Of a stretch of DNA of 34,321 nt, positions 4,413 to 19,434 are shown one piece after another (the first letter of the stretch is position 1; every line of letters starts with the position of its first letter). A program made the translations under genes and the position numbers. Origin of the DNA: a virus; the IMG/VR virus record IMGVR_UViG_3300021247_000872, positions 1 to 34,321 of that record; one strand, given 5' to 3'. The notes below the pieces were generated by a model. The model had not been told where the DNA came from. It saw only the letters and a program-made list of their open reading frames with translations, and made no database searches.

Positions 4413-5795
4413 TTAATCTCCAATTAAATCCAACATTGCTTTTTTGAGAAGCATTAGTTTAATATTTGAATTATCTTCAACTACTTCCTGTTCAGCTTCA
4501 ACAGTTTTTGTTTCAATAACTTCTTCTTTAGTCTCATTTGCATCGCACAAAGTAGTCCAAAGAACATTTGCGAGCTTTTTAGCTTCGCTTCTGCTTAAAC
4601 ACATTGCCTCTCGCAATGTTTTTTCAGCATCTCTAACGTCAGTAGGTCTATGACTCTCTTTACTGACTAAATATTTCATTTCAGCTGCTATATCTGTTGA
4701 TTTTGCTTCTAATTTGCTTACTAAATCCTTCGCAAGAACAGCAAATTGATCAAATACATAATTTAAATCAACATTTTCGCCTTCTAAATACAATAAAACA
4801 GCTTCATCTACACGCTCAAAAAGTGTTTCTAAACCTTCAGAAACAAGTTCTTTTTCAACATCATAAAATGGATTTTCTGGCATGATTGGAGCTTCTTCTT
4901 CTCCATTATCCTTTTTAGGCTTACACATCTTACATTCTTCGCCAGAATACATTTTTTCACACATATCACACATTTTTAAGGCAATATTACAATCTGGACA
5001 ATAATCAGATGTAACAACTTTGCCACATTCAGGACAATTCATAGCAACTTCCTTATATGGTTTCTCTATTTTTGTTAATGCTGATGCTCTATGTACAGAT
5101 GTTGCATTTCTCATTTGATAAGAACCATCAGGCTGCTTTTGATAAACTCTAATTTTATAAACAGGATCTTCTTCAGTTCCTACGATTGTTGTACCAAGCG
5201 GCTGACCAACAAGAGGACCATCTTTTCTAATTTTTATAATTTGACCTCTTACAGTTGTTCCATATGCATGCCAAGATACATAATCTCCAACTCTTAAGTC
5301 TTCAACCATAGCTTTTAACATTTTAGCAGTAACAATATTTCGACTTTCAGCTGGTCTTGGAGTTAATGAAGCTTCAGCAAGTGTCCAACGCTTAATTTCA
5401 TAAGCTTTTCCAACACTTTTTCTCTCAACCATATGACTTGCAGCACCACTTGAATAGCCTAATTTGCCTTGTTTTGCGAGCTCCATGATCATTTGATTAT
5501 ATTGGTCATTCATTTCAATTTGAGCTTCATACCATAAACCTTTTTCATCCATCTTGACAAAACCAGTACCAATACTTTTAGTACCAATTACTCCATCTTG
5601 ACCATGATGATAATAAAGATTTAATGCAAACTTTTGACCTTCTTTAAGAGGCCTACCAAAATCTGTCTCTTTGGTAAAATAATCGCCTTCAAGATCAGTG
5701 TCATTAGGATTACCAAAACGAACTAAATAACCTTGAACTGTATTACCAACAAGTTTAATATTTTCGCCAAAGAAATATAAGTTTTCGTCCATCAT
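4413..5795 (-). CDS. Prohead protease (HK97 S78 type) with TUDOR-like and zinc-ribbon extension
   Basis: Residues 1-160 match HK97-type prohead proteases. The candidate catalytic histidine lies in LYYHHG (H63/H64) and the serine in GKLGYSSGAASH (S115/S116), followed by the conserved LAEASLTPRPAE. Beyond this, about residues 166-245 (LRVGDYVSWHAYG through VHRASALTKI) look like the TUDOR-type domain known from other phage proteases. Two zinc-ribbon knuckle pairs follow (CPEC/CPDC at 254-269 and CDMC/CKMC at 276-291), then a helical acidic C-terminus. At 460 residues it is about twice the size of simple proteases. It would cleave the capsid delta domain during maturation; the added parts may handle scaffold or DNA. 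Two adjacent ATG codons compete as start. Confidence 0.85.
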   Translation of the reverse strand: MMDENLYFFGENIKLVGNTVQGYLVRFGNPNDTDLEGDYFTKETDFGRPLKEGQKFALNLYYHHGQDGVIGTKSIGTGFVKMDEKGLWYEAQIEMNDQYNQMIMELAKQGKLGYSSGAASHMVERKSVGKAYEIKRWTLAEASLTPRPAESRNIVTAKMLKAMVEDLRVGDYVSWHAYGTTVRGQIIKIRKDGPLVGQPLGTTIVGTEEDPVYKIRVYQKQPDGSYQMRNATSVHRASALTKIEKPYKEVAMNCPECGKVVTSDYCPDCNIALKMCDMCEKMYSGEECKMCKPKKDNGEEEAPIMPENPFYDVEKELVSEGLETLFERVDEAVLLYLEGENVDLNYVFDQFAVLAKDLVSKLEAKSTDIAAEMKYLVSKESHRPTDVRDAEKTLREAMCLSRSEAKKLANVLWTTLCDANETKEEVIETKTVEAEQEVVEDNSNIKLMLLKKAMLDLIGD

Positions 5796-10327: not shown

Positions 10328-10530
10328 TATATTTTTTAAGAGGCCAAAAAGTTAGGTATATAAAAGGTGTGGAAAATTGGTGTGCTTTTTAAAGAGGAGT
10401 GGTCTTTTGGTTTTTCGCTTCAACTCTTTTTTGTACATTGTAAGAAAAATCTATCAAAAAATCTTCCAACGTACAAAAATAAAAATAAATAAAAATAAAA
10501 TAATCTCTGGCCTCTTTTTTATTTATTCAT

Positions 10531-10543
10531 GTGCGCCAAAGAT
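10531..10543 (+). repeat. GTGCGCCAA(A/G)GAT box, copy 1
   Basis: GTGCGCCAAAGAT here and GTGCGCCAAGGAT at 10729-10741 match in 12 of 13 positions, in the same orientation. They look like binding boxes of an initiator or regulator. Confidence 0.6.
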
Positions 10544-10678
10544 CTACCACCAATTTCCGCCAGTATAAAAATAAAATAATAATAAATAAAAAATAAATAA
10601 AAGCGGCCAATAGAAATAATAAATAAATCTTTGGCCTCTTTTTTTAAATAATACTGGCGCCAACATTTTCTGGTATCC

Positions 10679-15889: not shown

Positions 15890-16207
15890 TTATTGATCTA
15901 ACGCTACACTTTCAAAGGAGAAAGAAAACTTTGCGTATTTTTCAATAGAGAGTTGGCTGCTCTCGGAAAAGCAAACTTCGTTGATAGCCTCAAGTACCAT
16001 GGAAACATAAGTATCAGCTTCAGCAAGTACAACGCAGTAATCATCACCAGTTGTCCAGAGCTTATTCTTCTGGCTCTCAACTTCTTCCTTGACAGCTCTC
16101 TTGGAGAAGTGTAGGCCATTTTCGTTTATGGCCTGGAAAATACCGGAGAGTACATCGCTCTCTTTAGCAACAACTATAGGAGTTGTCTTAATCTTCATCT
16201 TAATCAT
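15890..16207 (-). CDS. Unknown immediate-early protein (105 aa)
   Basis: A soluble protein, basic at the start (MIKMKIKTTPIVVAKESD) and acidic later. No family was recognised. It has its own consensus promoter, AAGGAATAAAACAA leader and terminator, and is therefore a single-gene, probably highly expressed, immediate-early unit. Candidates are a host-takeover or anti-defence protein; this is inference from arrangement only. Confidence 0.7.
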   Translation of the reverse strand: MIKMKIKTTPIVVAKESDVLSGIFQAINENGLHFSKRAVKEEVESQKNKLWTTGDDYCVVLAEADTYVSMVLEAINEVCFSESSQLSIEKYAKFSFSFESVALDQ

Positions 16208-16223: not shown

Positions 16224-16243
16224 AGGTAAGTGTGTGCTTACCT
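16224..16243. repeat. AGGTAAG/CTTACCT palindrome at predicted transcript start
   Basis: A perfect seven-base inverted repeat with a six-base loop, covering the predicted +1 of the 16207 gene. It could be an operator or a 5' RNA hairpin. Confidence 0.6.
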
Positions 16244-16575: not shown

Positions 16576-16609
16576 AAATCTCTGAAACCCGGTTTAAAAA
16601 ATTATTTGG
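16576..16609 (+). repeat. 34-base direct repeat, copy 1
   Basis: AAATCTCTGAAACCCGG continuing as TTTAAAAAATTATTTGG. It differs from copy 2 at two positions. Copies lie 193 bases apart start to start. Confidence 0.85.
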
Positions 16610-16636
16610 TAATCGTTTTTTTGTATTCATGTTGTG

Positions 16637-16768: not shown

Positions 16769-16802
16769 AAATCTCTCAACCCCGGTTTAAAAAATTATTT
16801 GG
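16769..16802 (+). repeat. 34-base direct repeat, copy 2
   Basis: AAATCTCTCAACCCCGG continuing as TTTAAAAAATTATTTGG, 32 of 34 identical to copy 1. The intact GC-rich CCCGG in an otherwise AT-only region suggests selection. Confidence 0.85.
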
Positions 16803-17022
16803 AATATCTTTTTTAGGATTTTATTTTGTAGGTTTTTTCTTGTAATTTTTAGAATGAATTAGTAAGCGCTTTTTTATAAATTATTCCAGAAAAAAGTCCA
16901 CAGATTTTTCTACAGAATAAATAGGCAAAAATAAAGCATTTAAGGCATTTTTATTAGTGTTATGAGTGTTTGTATTATTCTTCTATAAAAAGCGCTAAAA
17001 CAATAAGATTTGAGGCTAAATT

Positions 17023-17148
17023 ATGATACTTCCAGAAGTTGTTAGGTTAGGTTTTATAGATTCTGTTATTATTGGTATTTATGTACTTTGTGTATGGAAT
17101 TGTATAGAATATTTTGTCAATTGGCTTAAGAAGAAGCGAAATAAATAA
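17023..17148 (+). CDS. Tiny membrane protein (41 aa)
   Basis: A hidden short gene with a good TTGAGG ribosome site eight bases before ATG. The protein starts MILPEVVRLG, has one hydrophobic segment at about residues 10-31, then a basic tail ending KKKRNK, giving an expected C-terminus-inside topology. Isolated in a control region, it resembles small phage membrane effectors (superinfection exclusion or host inhibition), but the function is unknown. Confidence 0.6.
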   Translation: MILPEVVRLGFIDSVIIGIYVLCVWNCIEYFVNWLKKKRNK

Positions 17149-17241
17149 GTGTGTCCAAAAGTAGTGTTTCCTTAATATATTACATATAGATACACTTTAA
17201 AAAGAAAAGAAAAAGAAGCAAAAAGAAAAGAAAGTATTGAA

Positions 17242-17259
17242 GCATTTGCAAGCAAATGC
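17242..17259. repeat. Palindrome GCATTTGC-AA-GCAAATGC
   Basis: An eight-base perfect stem with two unpaired bases; the first of the hairpin series. Confidence 0.75.
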
Positions 17260-17310
17260 GCTTATTCTACTCTTAATTGTTATTCTTTATTTATTTGTTA
17301 TTGTAGAGTA

Positions 17311-17330
17311 CATAACTCTAACGAGTTATG
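17311..17330. repeat. Palindrome CATAACTC-TAAC-GAGTTATG
   Basis: An eight-base stem with TAAC loop. The same 20-mer recurs in inverted orientation at 17587-17606, where the loop reads GTTA. Confidence 0.85.
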
Positions 17331-17331
17331 T

Positions 17332-17398
17332 TTCTGCTCTTCTTATATTAAGCTACAAGACTAACGTCTTGCTTAACGCTTAAATAAGAAGATCAGAA
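17332..17398 (+). ncRNA. Large two-level stem-loop, candidate structured RNA
   Basis: Outer stem: TTCTG and TCTTCTTAT pair with ATAAGAAGA and CAGAA, with one mismatch between the blocks. Inner stem: TTAAG/CTTAA and CAAGAC/GTCTTG with a TAAC loop and a three-base bulge. About 25 paired bases in 67 nt is far from chance. Transcription of this strand is assumed, not shown. Confidence 0.5.
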
Positions 17399-17399
17399 G

Positions 17400-17414
17400 T
17401 ACAGCTTCGCTGTA
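17400..17414. repeat. Palindrome TACAGC-TTC-GCTGTA
   Basis: A six-base stem and three-base loop directly after the large stem-loop, followed by a T-run (TACTTTTTTTTA) about 9 bases later. The pair could act as a terminator for a plus-strand RNA covering the hairpins. Confidence 0.55.
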
Positions 17415-17586
17415 TTACCTACTTTTTTTTAGAGAACACTTTATAGTAGAACAATATCTTATTCCTCCTATTCTGTTCTGGTTATTTATTTAAAAAGAAA
17501 AAGATAAGAGAAAAACTACAATGTCTCCTATGAATGAATGTATGACGAAGCTTTAGCGAGGAAGGAATGAAGAATAGGAGCATTAC

Positions 17587-17606
17587 ATAACTCGTTAGAG
17601 TTATGT
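17587..17606. repeat. Palindrome CATAACTC-GTTA-GAGTTATG
   Basis: The exact reverse complement of the element at 17311-17330. It lies just upstream of the TGATAAAATA element before the 17641 gene. Confidence 0.85.
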
Positions 17607-17612
17607 TGTATT

Positions 17613-17622
17613 GATAAAATAA
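17613..17622 (+). promoter_or_regulatory. TGATAAAATA element before 17641 gene
   Basis: Plus-strand copy of the late-operon element, 28 bases before the start and just before a GAGGTAG ribosome site. It is the only exact plus-strand copy noticed. It would link this gene to the same regulon. Confidence 0.5.
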
Positions 17623-17640: not shown

Positions 17641-18066
17641 ATGACAAAGTTAGAAAATGTAAATATTCTTTTATCTGGAAAAATCTATGATAAAGTTGGT
17701 TATGTATTTAAATCAGAATTAAGTAAAGATATCAAAGGAACTGAAATAAAAGTTTCTATTGATGAGATTGTAGTTGATGATTATAATTTATTAGTTGCTG
17801 ATATTGTTGATTTAGATGTTTATGAAGTTAATAAAGTAGCTCAAGTATTAAGATGGAGTAATAGACCAGTATTTTTAGTACTTGATGAGAATGATGATAA
17901 TTTAAATGTTATTAGAAGATTTGAATATAATTATCATGTAGATGAGAAAAAGATTTATGCTTATTTTAATTTGCATCTTCCTACTTGTAAAGGTTGTTTA
18001 GAAAATCTTTACAATCCAAAAGAAATTGTAAATGAAGAAGGAAATAGTAATCCAGAAGTTGTATAA
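17641..18066 (+). CDS. Unknown 141-residue protein, possibly receiver-like fold
   Basis: An alternating strand/helix pattern (NVNILLSGKIYDKVGYVFKS, then YNLLVADIVDLDVYEVNKVA, then RPVFLVLDENDD) gives the impression of a response-regulator receiver or Rossmann-like fold, but no phospho-acceptor signature is complete. The C-terminal part has a CKGC pair (PTCKGCLENLY) that may bind metal. The gene forms a separate unit: a TGATAAAATA element and GAGGTAG before it, a strong terminator after it. No function is assigned. Confidence 0.65.
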   Translation: MTKLENVNILLSGKIYDKVGYVFKSELSKDIKGTEIKVSIDEIVVDDYNLLVADIVDLDVYEVNKVAQVLRWSNRPVFLVLDENDDNLNVIRRFEYNYHVDEKKIYAYFNLHLPTCKGCLENLYNPKEIVNEEGNSNPEVV

Positions 18067-18107
18067 GAATAGTAATACTCATTGGCATTGGTATTAAACT
18101 CCTAAAG

Positions 18108-18138
18108 AAGAGGACTATGTTAATTCATAGTCCTTTTT
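18108..18138 (+). terminator. Rho-independent terminator after 17641 gene
   Basis: AGGACTATG pairs perfectly with CATAGTCCT, extended by AAG/TTT-type pairs, with a six-base loop and a run of seven T residues. It lies about 40 bases after the stop codon. Confidence 0.9.
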
Positions 18139-18160
18139 TATTATTAATTGAGAAATAAAA

Positions 18161-18970: not shown

Positions 18971-19339
18971 ATGGAATATATTAGAGATTTACAACAAAAA
19001 ATTAAAGATTTAGAAGAAGAATTACAACAACAAAAAGCAGACTATACAATGGATAAAGCTCGTGTTGTTTATGCTTATCATATTCTTAATGCTGGTAGAG
19101 ATGAGCATGTTTTAATGCATATGGATGATAAAGCAAGAGAAGTTGTATTTTGGAAGATGAAGTATGATCAGGTTGTTTCAGAAGTTGAGCATTATAAAAA
19201 GAGTAATAAAGCTTGGCAAGAAAAGTATGAGAAATTATTTGAAAAGAATCAGATTACTTTAAATGCTATTGAAGAACTTGAAAAACATATTGACCAATGT
19301 TTAGATTGTAGACGTGGTATTAAGAGATGTTGTAAATGA
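18971..19339 (+). CDS. Coiled-coil protein with C-terminal cysteine cluster
   Basis: A 122-residue, highly charged, helical protein. Residues 1-30 (RDLQQKIKDLEEELQQQKAD) and 55-110 show heptad-like coiled coil. The C-terminus CLDCRRGIKRCCK has five cysteines, so metal binding or disulphide linking is possible. It is coupled to a following tiny membrane protein by an ATGA overlap. No family was recognised; a scaffold or membrane-associated complex is one reading. Confidence 0.65.
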   Translation: MEYIRDLQQKIKDLEEELQQQKADYTMDKARVVYAYHILNAGRDEHVLMHMDDKAREVVFWKMKYDQVVSEVEHYKKSNKAWQEKYEKLFEKNQITLNAIEELEKHIDQCLDCRRGIKRCCK

Positions 19340-19434
19340 ATGAGTTTATAACATGGCTTCATTTGATACAACTTATTCTTTGTTCATTTTATATTGGTTA
19401 TGTAATTTCTGAAAAAATAAACAATAAGAAATAA
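19336..19434 (+). CDS. Tiny membrane protein (32 aa)
   Basis: It starts inside the stop of the coiled-coil gene (ATGA overlap). The sequence opens MNEFITWLHLIQLILC, has one hydrophobic segment (about 5-24) and a basic tail EKINNKK. Overlap and topology match the other hidden membrane peptides in this region. Function unknown. Confidence 0.5.
   Translation: MNEFITWLHLIQLILCSFYIGYVISEKINNKK

Follow-up and report, generated by a model that had tools for sequence, protein, structure and literature searches.

A hairpin field with a recurring asymmetric internal loop in an uncultured HK97-type phage: a possible leader RNA upstream of a conserved terminator

The oriV of RSF1010 carries inverted ssiA and ssiB hairpins that lie near direct repeats and serve the two strands, while REP/BIME palindromes are short, occur in opposite orientations and have many dispersed copies. 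In phages, the put RNA of HK022 (putL and putR) is part of an early leader and consists of adjacent stem-loops with bulges and internal loops, with terminators located downstream (PMC9378689). Also, UMAC loops are GNRA-like; in phage phi21 the N peptide binds a boxB with such a loop (CUAACC), and GNRA-like modules are recurrently found split across two strands (PMC12550061). Here we describe a hairpin field that we take to be a genuine structured element, outside any known family but present also in the sole relative found; the case is suggestive and not settled.

The window, i.e. the whole stretch of DNA analysed, is the complete IMG/VR record IMGVR_UViG_3300021247_000872 (34,321 bases), which may itself be a fragment. 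It belongs to an HK97-type tailed phage of a freshwater, uncultured lineage that encodes a sigma-like protein and an AAA_25 helicase. No near DNA match to the window was found among 50,697 phage records, the 60-bp matches of a distant DNA search corresponding to 18992-19051, within a gene. The terminases of named phages are all less than 60% identical to that of the window phage, and genome contigs gave only two terminase matches, both distant. Relatives were sought via the 17641, 18161 and 18609 genes, TerL, the endolysin and the DNA motif, and the only viral contig found with the field region was IMGVR_UViG_3300008113_000482 (37 kb, hereafter G001). The hairpin field is the non-coding stretch between two + strand ORFs, 17023-17148 and 17641-18066, and the features to which we refer are the following.

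Left side of the window, all - strand: major capsid protein, prohead protease, portal and large terminase
17023-17148, + strand: small membrane ORF; G001 has a counterpart, and the distant relative L259 has a similar ORF (10430-10558, - strand)
17141-17304, + strand: conserved upstream block (E1, purine tract, E3, T-rich tract), with 76-79% DNA identity to two adjacent G001 copies
17148-17155 / 17189-17196, + strand: hairpin E1, 8 bp
17242-17259, + strand: hairpin E3, GCATTTG..CAAATGC; both G001 copies have a counterpart with a different stem
17310-17331, + strand: hairpin E5, ACATAACTC-TAAC-GAGTTATGT, 9 bp, with a C-G closed UMAC-type tetraloop; absent from G001
17332-17398, + strand: two-level stem E6, 67 nt, z -7.23 alone
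17356-17371, + strand: inner hairpin of E6, CAAGAC-TAAC-GTCTTG
17354-17355 / 17372-17377, + strand: internal loop of E6, UA / CUUAAC, closed by C17353-G17378
17399-17415, + strand: hairpin E7, GTACAGC-TTC-GCTGTAT, which reads GC-GAA-GC on the - strand
17465-17474 with 17571-17580, + strand: E9 pairing 1, 10 bp, which excludes pairing 2
17525-17531 with 17574-17580, + strand: E9 pairing 2, 7 bp, with a stem of 7 bp at the equivalent position in G001
17585-17606, + strand: hairpin E10, loop GTTA, an exact inverted copy of E5
17641-18066, + strand: the 17641 gene, 141 aa, function not assigned, directly behind the field
18106-18139, + strand: intrinsic terminator, ending about 22 nt before the start of the VRR-nuclease gene (18161)

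The field partly coincides with a frame of 48 codons that starts at TTG (17237-17383), and no matching reading frame was established in G001. Coding for a peptide was considered and rejected: hydrophobic frames exist in both phages, but they differ, and no usual start was found in G001. A second very short membrane ORF lies at 19336-19434.

The original prediction had described a set of strong palindromes, and all those named are present. The region also folds far better than shuffled sequences. The + strand of 17230-17620 reaches -104.4 kcal/mol vs -75.1 (sd 5.3) for the shuffles (z -5.52; 0/100 shuffles as good), and the - strand reaches -103.8 kcal/mol (z -7.69), again with no shuffle as good. 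When the whole window was scanned by 120 nt, 17281 and 4081 shared the best + strand score (z -6.4), and on the - strand 17281 came second (z -6.5). The G001 field also folds beyond its shuffles (z -2.46 on the + strand, -5.75 on the - strand), while the local hairpins of E9 (17525-17580) and their G001 counterpart are not significant when taken alone (single-hairpin z -1.5 and -1.6). No G-U pairs occur in E5/E10 and E6, and the whole + fold holds 5/88 in the window and 2/61 in G001; as the stems are nearly pure Watson-Crick, they would suit either strand. In E1, one pair is G-U in the window and U-A in both G001 copies, and would be a mismatch if read on the other strand.

The inverted 20-mer that had been reported is indeed there, at 17311-17330 and 17586-17605 (17587 should read 17586), with an exact match of 22 nt per arm. 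The arms of E5 and E10 are perfectly complementary over 22 nt each, and the fold model joins them as a 22-bp helix; E5 alone also forms its 9-bp hairpin, and E10, being its inverse, can do likewise. This pair is not conserved in G001. The shared TAAC loop holds for E5 and the inner hairpin of E6, whereas the third hairpin has the complement GTTA on the same strand. Among 2.9 million IMG/VR viral contigs there was no other copy of the TAAC-loop hairpin, of which the window phage has two. The proposal of a family of mobile palindromes was not borne out, given that 14/14 IMG/VR matches to the 20-mer pattern have other loops and represent one unrelated hairpin family. In fourteen viral contigs (L008-L021), CATAACTC-TWWA-GAGTTATG hairpins lie between the same flanks (gacaagaCATAACTC...tcttttgtcc) and form a conserved family of their own.

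G001 is close to the window phage in its proteins, TerL being 94% identical and the product of the 17641 gene 76% identical in amino acids. The 164-nt block 17141-17304 is in tandem in G001 (L004 5296-5449 and 5449-5604), nothing is alignable at the DNA level over the hairpin field, and identity resumes from 17601. As this gap is flanked by the 164-nt block and by the sequence from 17601 onward, the field has diverged while its neighbours did not. Within the tandem copies (L004 5296-5604), hairpin arms are crosswise complementary between copies, as after template switching or inversion. In G001, an additional ORF of 417 aa (L004 7133-8386) separates the nuclease from the 18609 gene, and the G001 copy of the 17641 gene contains an in-frame TAA at L004 6349-6351. 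The distant relatives L257-L259 are without the 17641 gene, and the internal-loop motif is absent from them and from the TerL-group loci.

The decisive feature of the field is the asymmetric internal loop of E6 and not the apical TAAC loop, which had been stressed as the key one and is not conserved, since G001 has TGGC and AGA in its place. The window form is C-UA-[CAAGAC UAAC GUCUUG]-CUUAAC-G. In G001, copy 1 reads C-UA-[CAAAUC UGGC GAUUUG]-CUUAAC-G on a 15-bp outer stem (L004 5612-5665), and copy 2, located 61 nt on, reads C-UA-[AACC AGA GGUU]-UUUAAC-G (L004 about 5672-5724) and is weak by folding energy alone (z -2.3). Both are at the same place as E6 in the window, on different stems. Between the window and copy 1, 12/12 pairs are kept, 4 of them by double changes and 0 broken, and 8/8 loop bases are identical. 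Sliding the register destroys this covariation, and a column-shuffle control, in a comparison of only two sequences, reaches the same score in 28/500 cases. The motif occurs once in the window field and twice in that of G001 vs 0 times in 20,000 dinucleotide shuffles of each. A relaxed search through 2.2 Mb of loci gave one further match, in L188, which lies within a coding gene and was considered chance; in a scan for CTACAA...TTGCTTAACG, G001 was the only one of the loci returned with strong inner and outer stems.

In the relative, then, the stems are compensated and the internal loop is kept, whereas the apical C-TAAC-G hairpins, which it had been proposed to look for in related phages, are absent. 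The earlier suggestions of a common binding partner and of a structured RNA gain support as readings from the recurrence of C-UA / YUUAAC-G on unrelated stems in both phages. Because the loop is kept while the stems change, recognition should be of a single-stranded fold, whether RNA or DNA. Judged by its order of bases, C-UA / AAC-G may correspond to a GNRA/UMAC-like module split over two strands, a three-dimensional likeness predicted from that order only. With DNA parameters, a 2-bp UA/UA pairing with two bulges is a possible alternative at the internal loop.

What lies downstream bears on the possible role of the field. The terminator has the same stem and arrangement in both phages (-17.7 kcal/mol; z -7.0 and -6.7), and no promoter-like site was found between it and the VRR-nuclease gene. 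For this reason expression of the nuclease and of later genes probably relies on read-through, and the sigma-like protein of the window phage leaves room for unrecognised promoters after the terminator. The predicted structure of the 17641 protein has a pLDDT of 44.6, too low to use. A small hairpin after the 17641 gene (18072-18099) has a loop, AUUGGCAUU, identical in G001; one of its stem pairs seems compensated by hand reading and is unscored in the computed alignment.

Our preferred explanation, tentative as it is, is that the field is a structured RNA that acts in cis within the rightward (+) operon's leader, most likely aiding read-through of the terminator. Transcription would start upstream of the 17023 ORF, cross the field and enter the 17641 gene. 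If folded in the cell as modelled, the RNA would be a row of hairpins showing a common loop module, C-UA...AAC-G, either as a UAAC tetraloop or as a UA / YUUAAC internal loop. This module might be read on otherwise arbitrary stems by an RNA-binding protein of the phage or host, or by RNA polymerase itself, and the modified transcription complex would then pass the terminator at 18106-18139, which otherwise would cut off the VRR nuclease and later genes. Since the field is upstream of the terminator, a leader that alters termination would explain the arrangement of the nuclease gene. We propose this read-through mechanism by analogy with HK022 put or lambdoid nut. That the field has a + strand ORF on either side and a conserved terminator downstream agrees with a + strand RNA, as does the G-U pair of E1. 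Against it are the nearly pure Watson-Crick stems, the better z-scores of the - strand and a covariation that rests on two phages; besides, the apical UAAC loops, the E5/E10 pair and a boxA-like TGCTCTT are not common to G001. The fuller version, an antitermination or RNA-recognition element with a UMAC/GNRA-like module both as tetraloop and as split loop, whose partner reads loop shape alone and which gates the terminator before the nuclease, is a doubtful one. If the leader works as proposed, a hitherto undescribed RNA would join the few known phage RNAs that alter termination, and nature would offer an example of a single RNA loop module serving as tetraloop and as internal loop alike.

The same structural data would suit a + strand structured RNA with another job: it could govern how the 17641 gene is translated or how stable its message is (autoregulation, RNase III processing), or be a small RNA in its own right. 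We hold these together to be rather unlikely, with post-transcriptional control of the 17641 gene being a close second to the leader reading because about 69 nt, beginning slightly upstream of its start codon and reaching codon 22, are identical in G001, with synonymous changes at 0/21 in the first 22 codons vs 18/70 after (p 0.0098), a constraint at the nucleotide level. The two exclusive pairings at 17465-17580 could serve as an RNA switch, and E5/E10, joined as a 22-bp helix around a domain of 253 nt, would resemble a processing stem, but that pair is not conserved. In addition, the Shine-Dalgarno site of the gene is unpaired in the window fold and takes part in no more than a 4-bp long-range pairing in the G001 fold, and the best duplex between field and gene start in the window is at shuffle level (-26.3 vs -25.8). 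A serious rival of another kind, although we think it unlikely, is that the hairpins act as DNA, single-stranded or cruciform, which a replication protein recognises at a replication origin or primer site, with E5/E10 serving two strands like ssiA/ssiB. It stays serious because the stems hold almost no G-U pairs; the two strands also fold with nearly the same energy, and on the - strand the loops are cGTTAg, cGCCAg and GC-GAA-GC, the cGNNAg and GC-GAA-GC types being presumably stable DNA loops. The AAA_25 helicase is present, and so is a nearby pair of CCCGGTTTAA repeats that is paired in G001 as well. However, none of the proteins scanned was recognised as a primase, a PDB search with the helicase gave nothing at E 0.01 (a link to RSF1010 RepA was rejected on this account), the inverted pair is absent from G001 and the field lies within a + gene unit, and an RNA leader is favoured over a DNA origin. 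If the origin reading held instead, the field would show where replication begins in an uncultured HK97-like phage lineage. A packaging site, which had also been put forward, is unlikely, as the terminase genes are about 8 kb off. The repeat AACCCGGTTTAAAAAATTATTTGG occurs directly at 16586-16610 and 16780-16804, with CCCGGTTTAA at 16588 and 16781; CCCGGTTTAA followed by a T-run is also found twice in G001 (L004 4807 and 4924) and is absent from the unrelated loci examined, so these are candidate origin or operator repeats.

An improbable explanation is that the palindromes are functionless remains of polymerase template switching at quasi-palindromes. Template switching homogenises arms and inverts spacers (PMC8604942), and the perfect arms, the exact inverted copy with only the loop inverted and the fast turnover of stem sequences would agree with it. 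Nevertheless, arm correction would erase an asymmetric loop, yet UA/YUUAAC is present on three stems in two phages, and the position of the element is conserved. That the - strand encodes the structured RNA, as an antisense leader, seems to us very improbable. Its z-scores are better in both phages (-7.69 vs -5.52, and -5.75 vs -2.46), but the energies are equal and the gap stems from the shuffles, the + strand being able to form more G-U pairs; since only the shuffle background differs, the better z-scores are no evidence for a - strand RNA. The sole suitably placed promoter-like match for it scores 9/12 (17647-17619), in a class of matches no commoner than in shuffles, the best leftward promoter-like site lies past the field, and E1 fits the + strand better. 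That best leftward match, TTGACA-16-TAGAAT, is at 16277-16250 (-). Just downstream of it, before the leftward gene 15890-16207, a perfect palindrome AGGTAAG-N6-CTTACCT (16224-16243) is possibly a repressor operator.

Searches against known families agree with an element outside them. Rfam 15 gave 0 covariance-model matches at the gathering score in the whole window, the best permissive match in the field having an E of 0.13; weak Phe_leader matches in both fields (E 0.76 and 0.33) were treated as chance, and no tRNA was found. In lambdoid nut sites of the phi21 type, boxA lies 5' of boxB and the partner is an arginine-rich N protein. Matches to boxA in the window are at chance level (40 vs 42 expected), and the boxA-like TGCTCTT at 17335 sits in a stem and is absent from the field of G001. 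No antiterminator family or N-like protein was matched among the early proteins scanned, from which short divergent N proteins can escape.

Compared with known systems, the window resembles REP/BIME in having a short palindrome twice in opposite orientation, but differs in having only two copies, none with the same loop elsewhere. As in RSF1010 oriV, there are inverted hairpins near direct repeats and, here, an AAA_25 helicase; unlike an RSF1010-type ssi origin, the inverted pair is absent from G001 and no primase was recognised in the proteins scanned. The predicted adjacent hairpins of the field, with a terminator downstream, recall HK022 put, which brings about read-through without a phage protein, via the beta' zinc-binding domain. 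The two differ in size, put having two stem-loops in about 70 nt and the field covering about 300 nt, and no sequence relation was shown. Two C(UAAC)G hairpins of the window recall lambdoid nut and phi21 boxB in that a UAAC loop of the UMAC type tops a short stem; unlike in phi21 boxB, the tetraloop is closed by C-G and an internal loop would present the module in split form, and the G001 loops are UGGC and AGA. Finally, UAA/GAN and other two-strand GNRA-like loops are comparable in that a GNRA/UMAC-like order divided over two strands between positions 3 and 4 would fit C-UA / AAC-G (PMC12550061).
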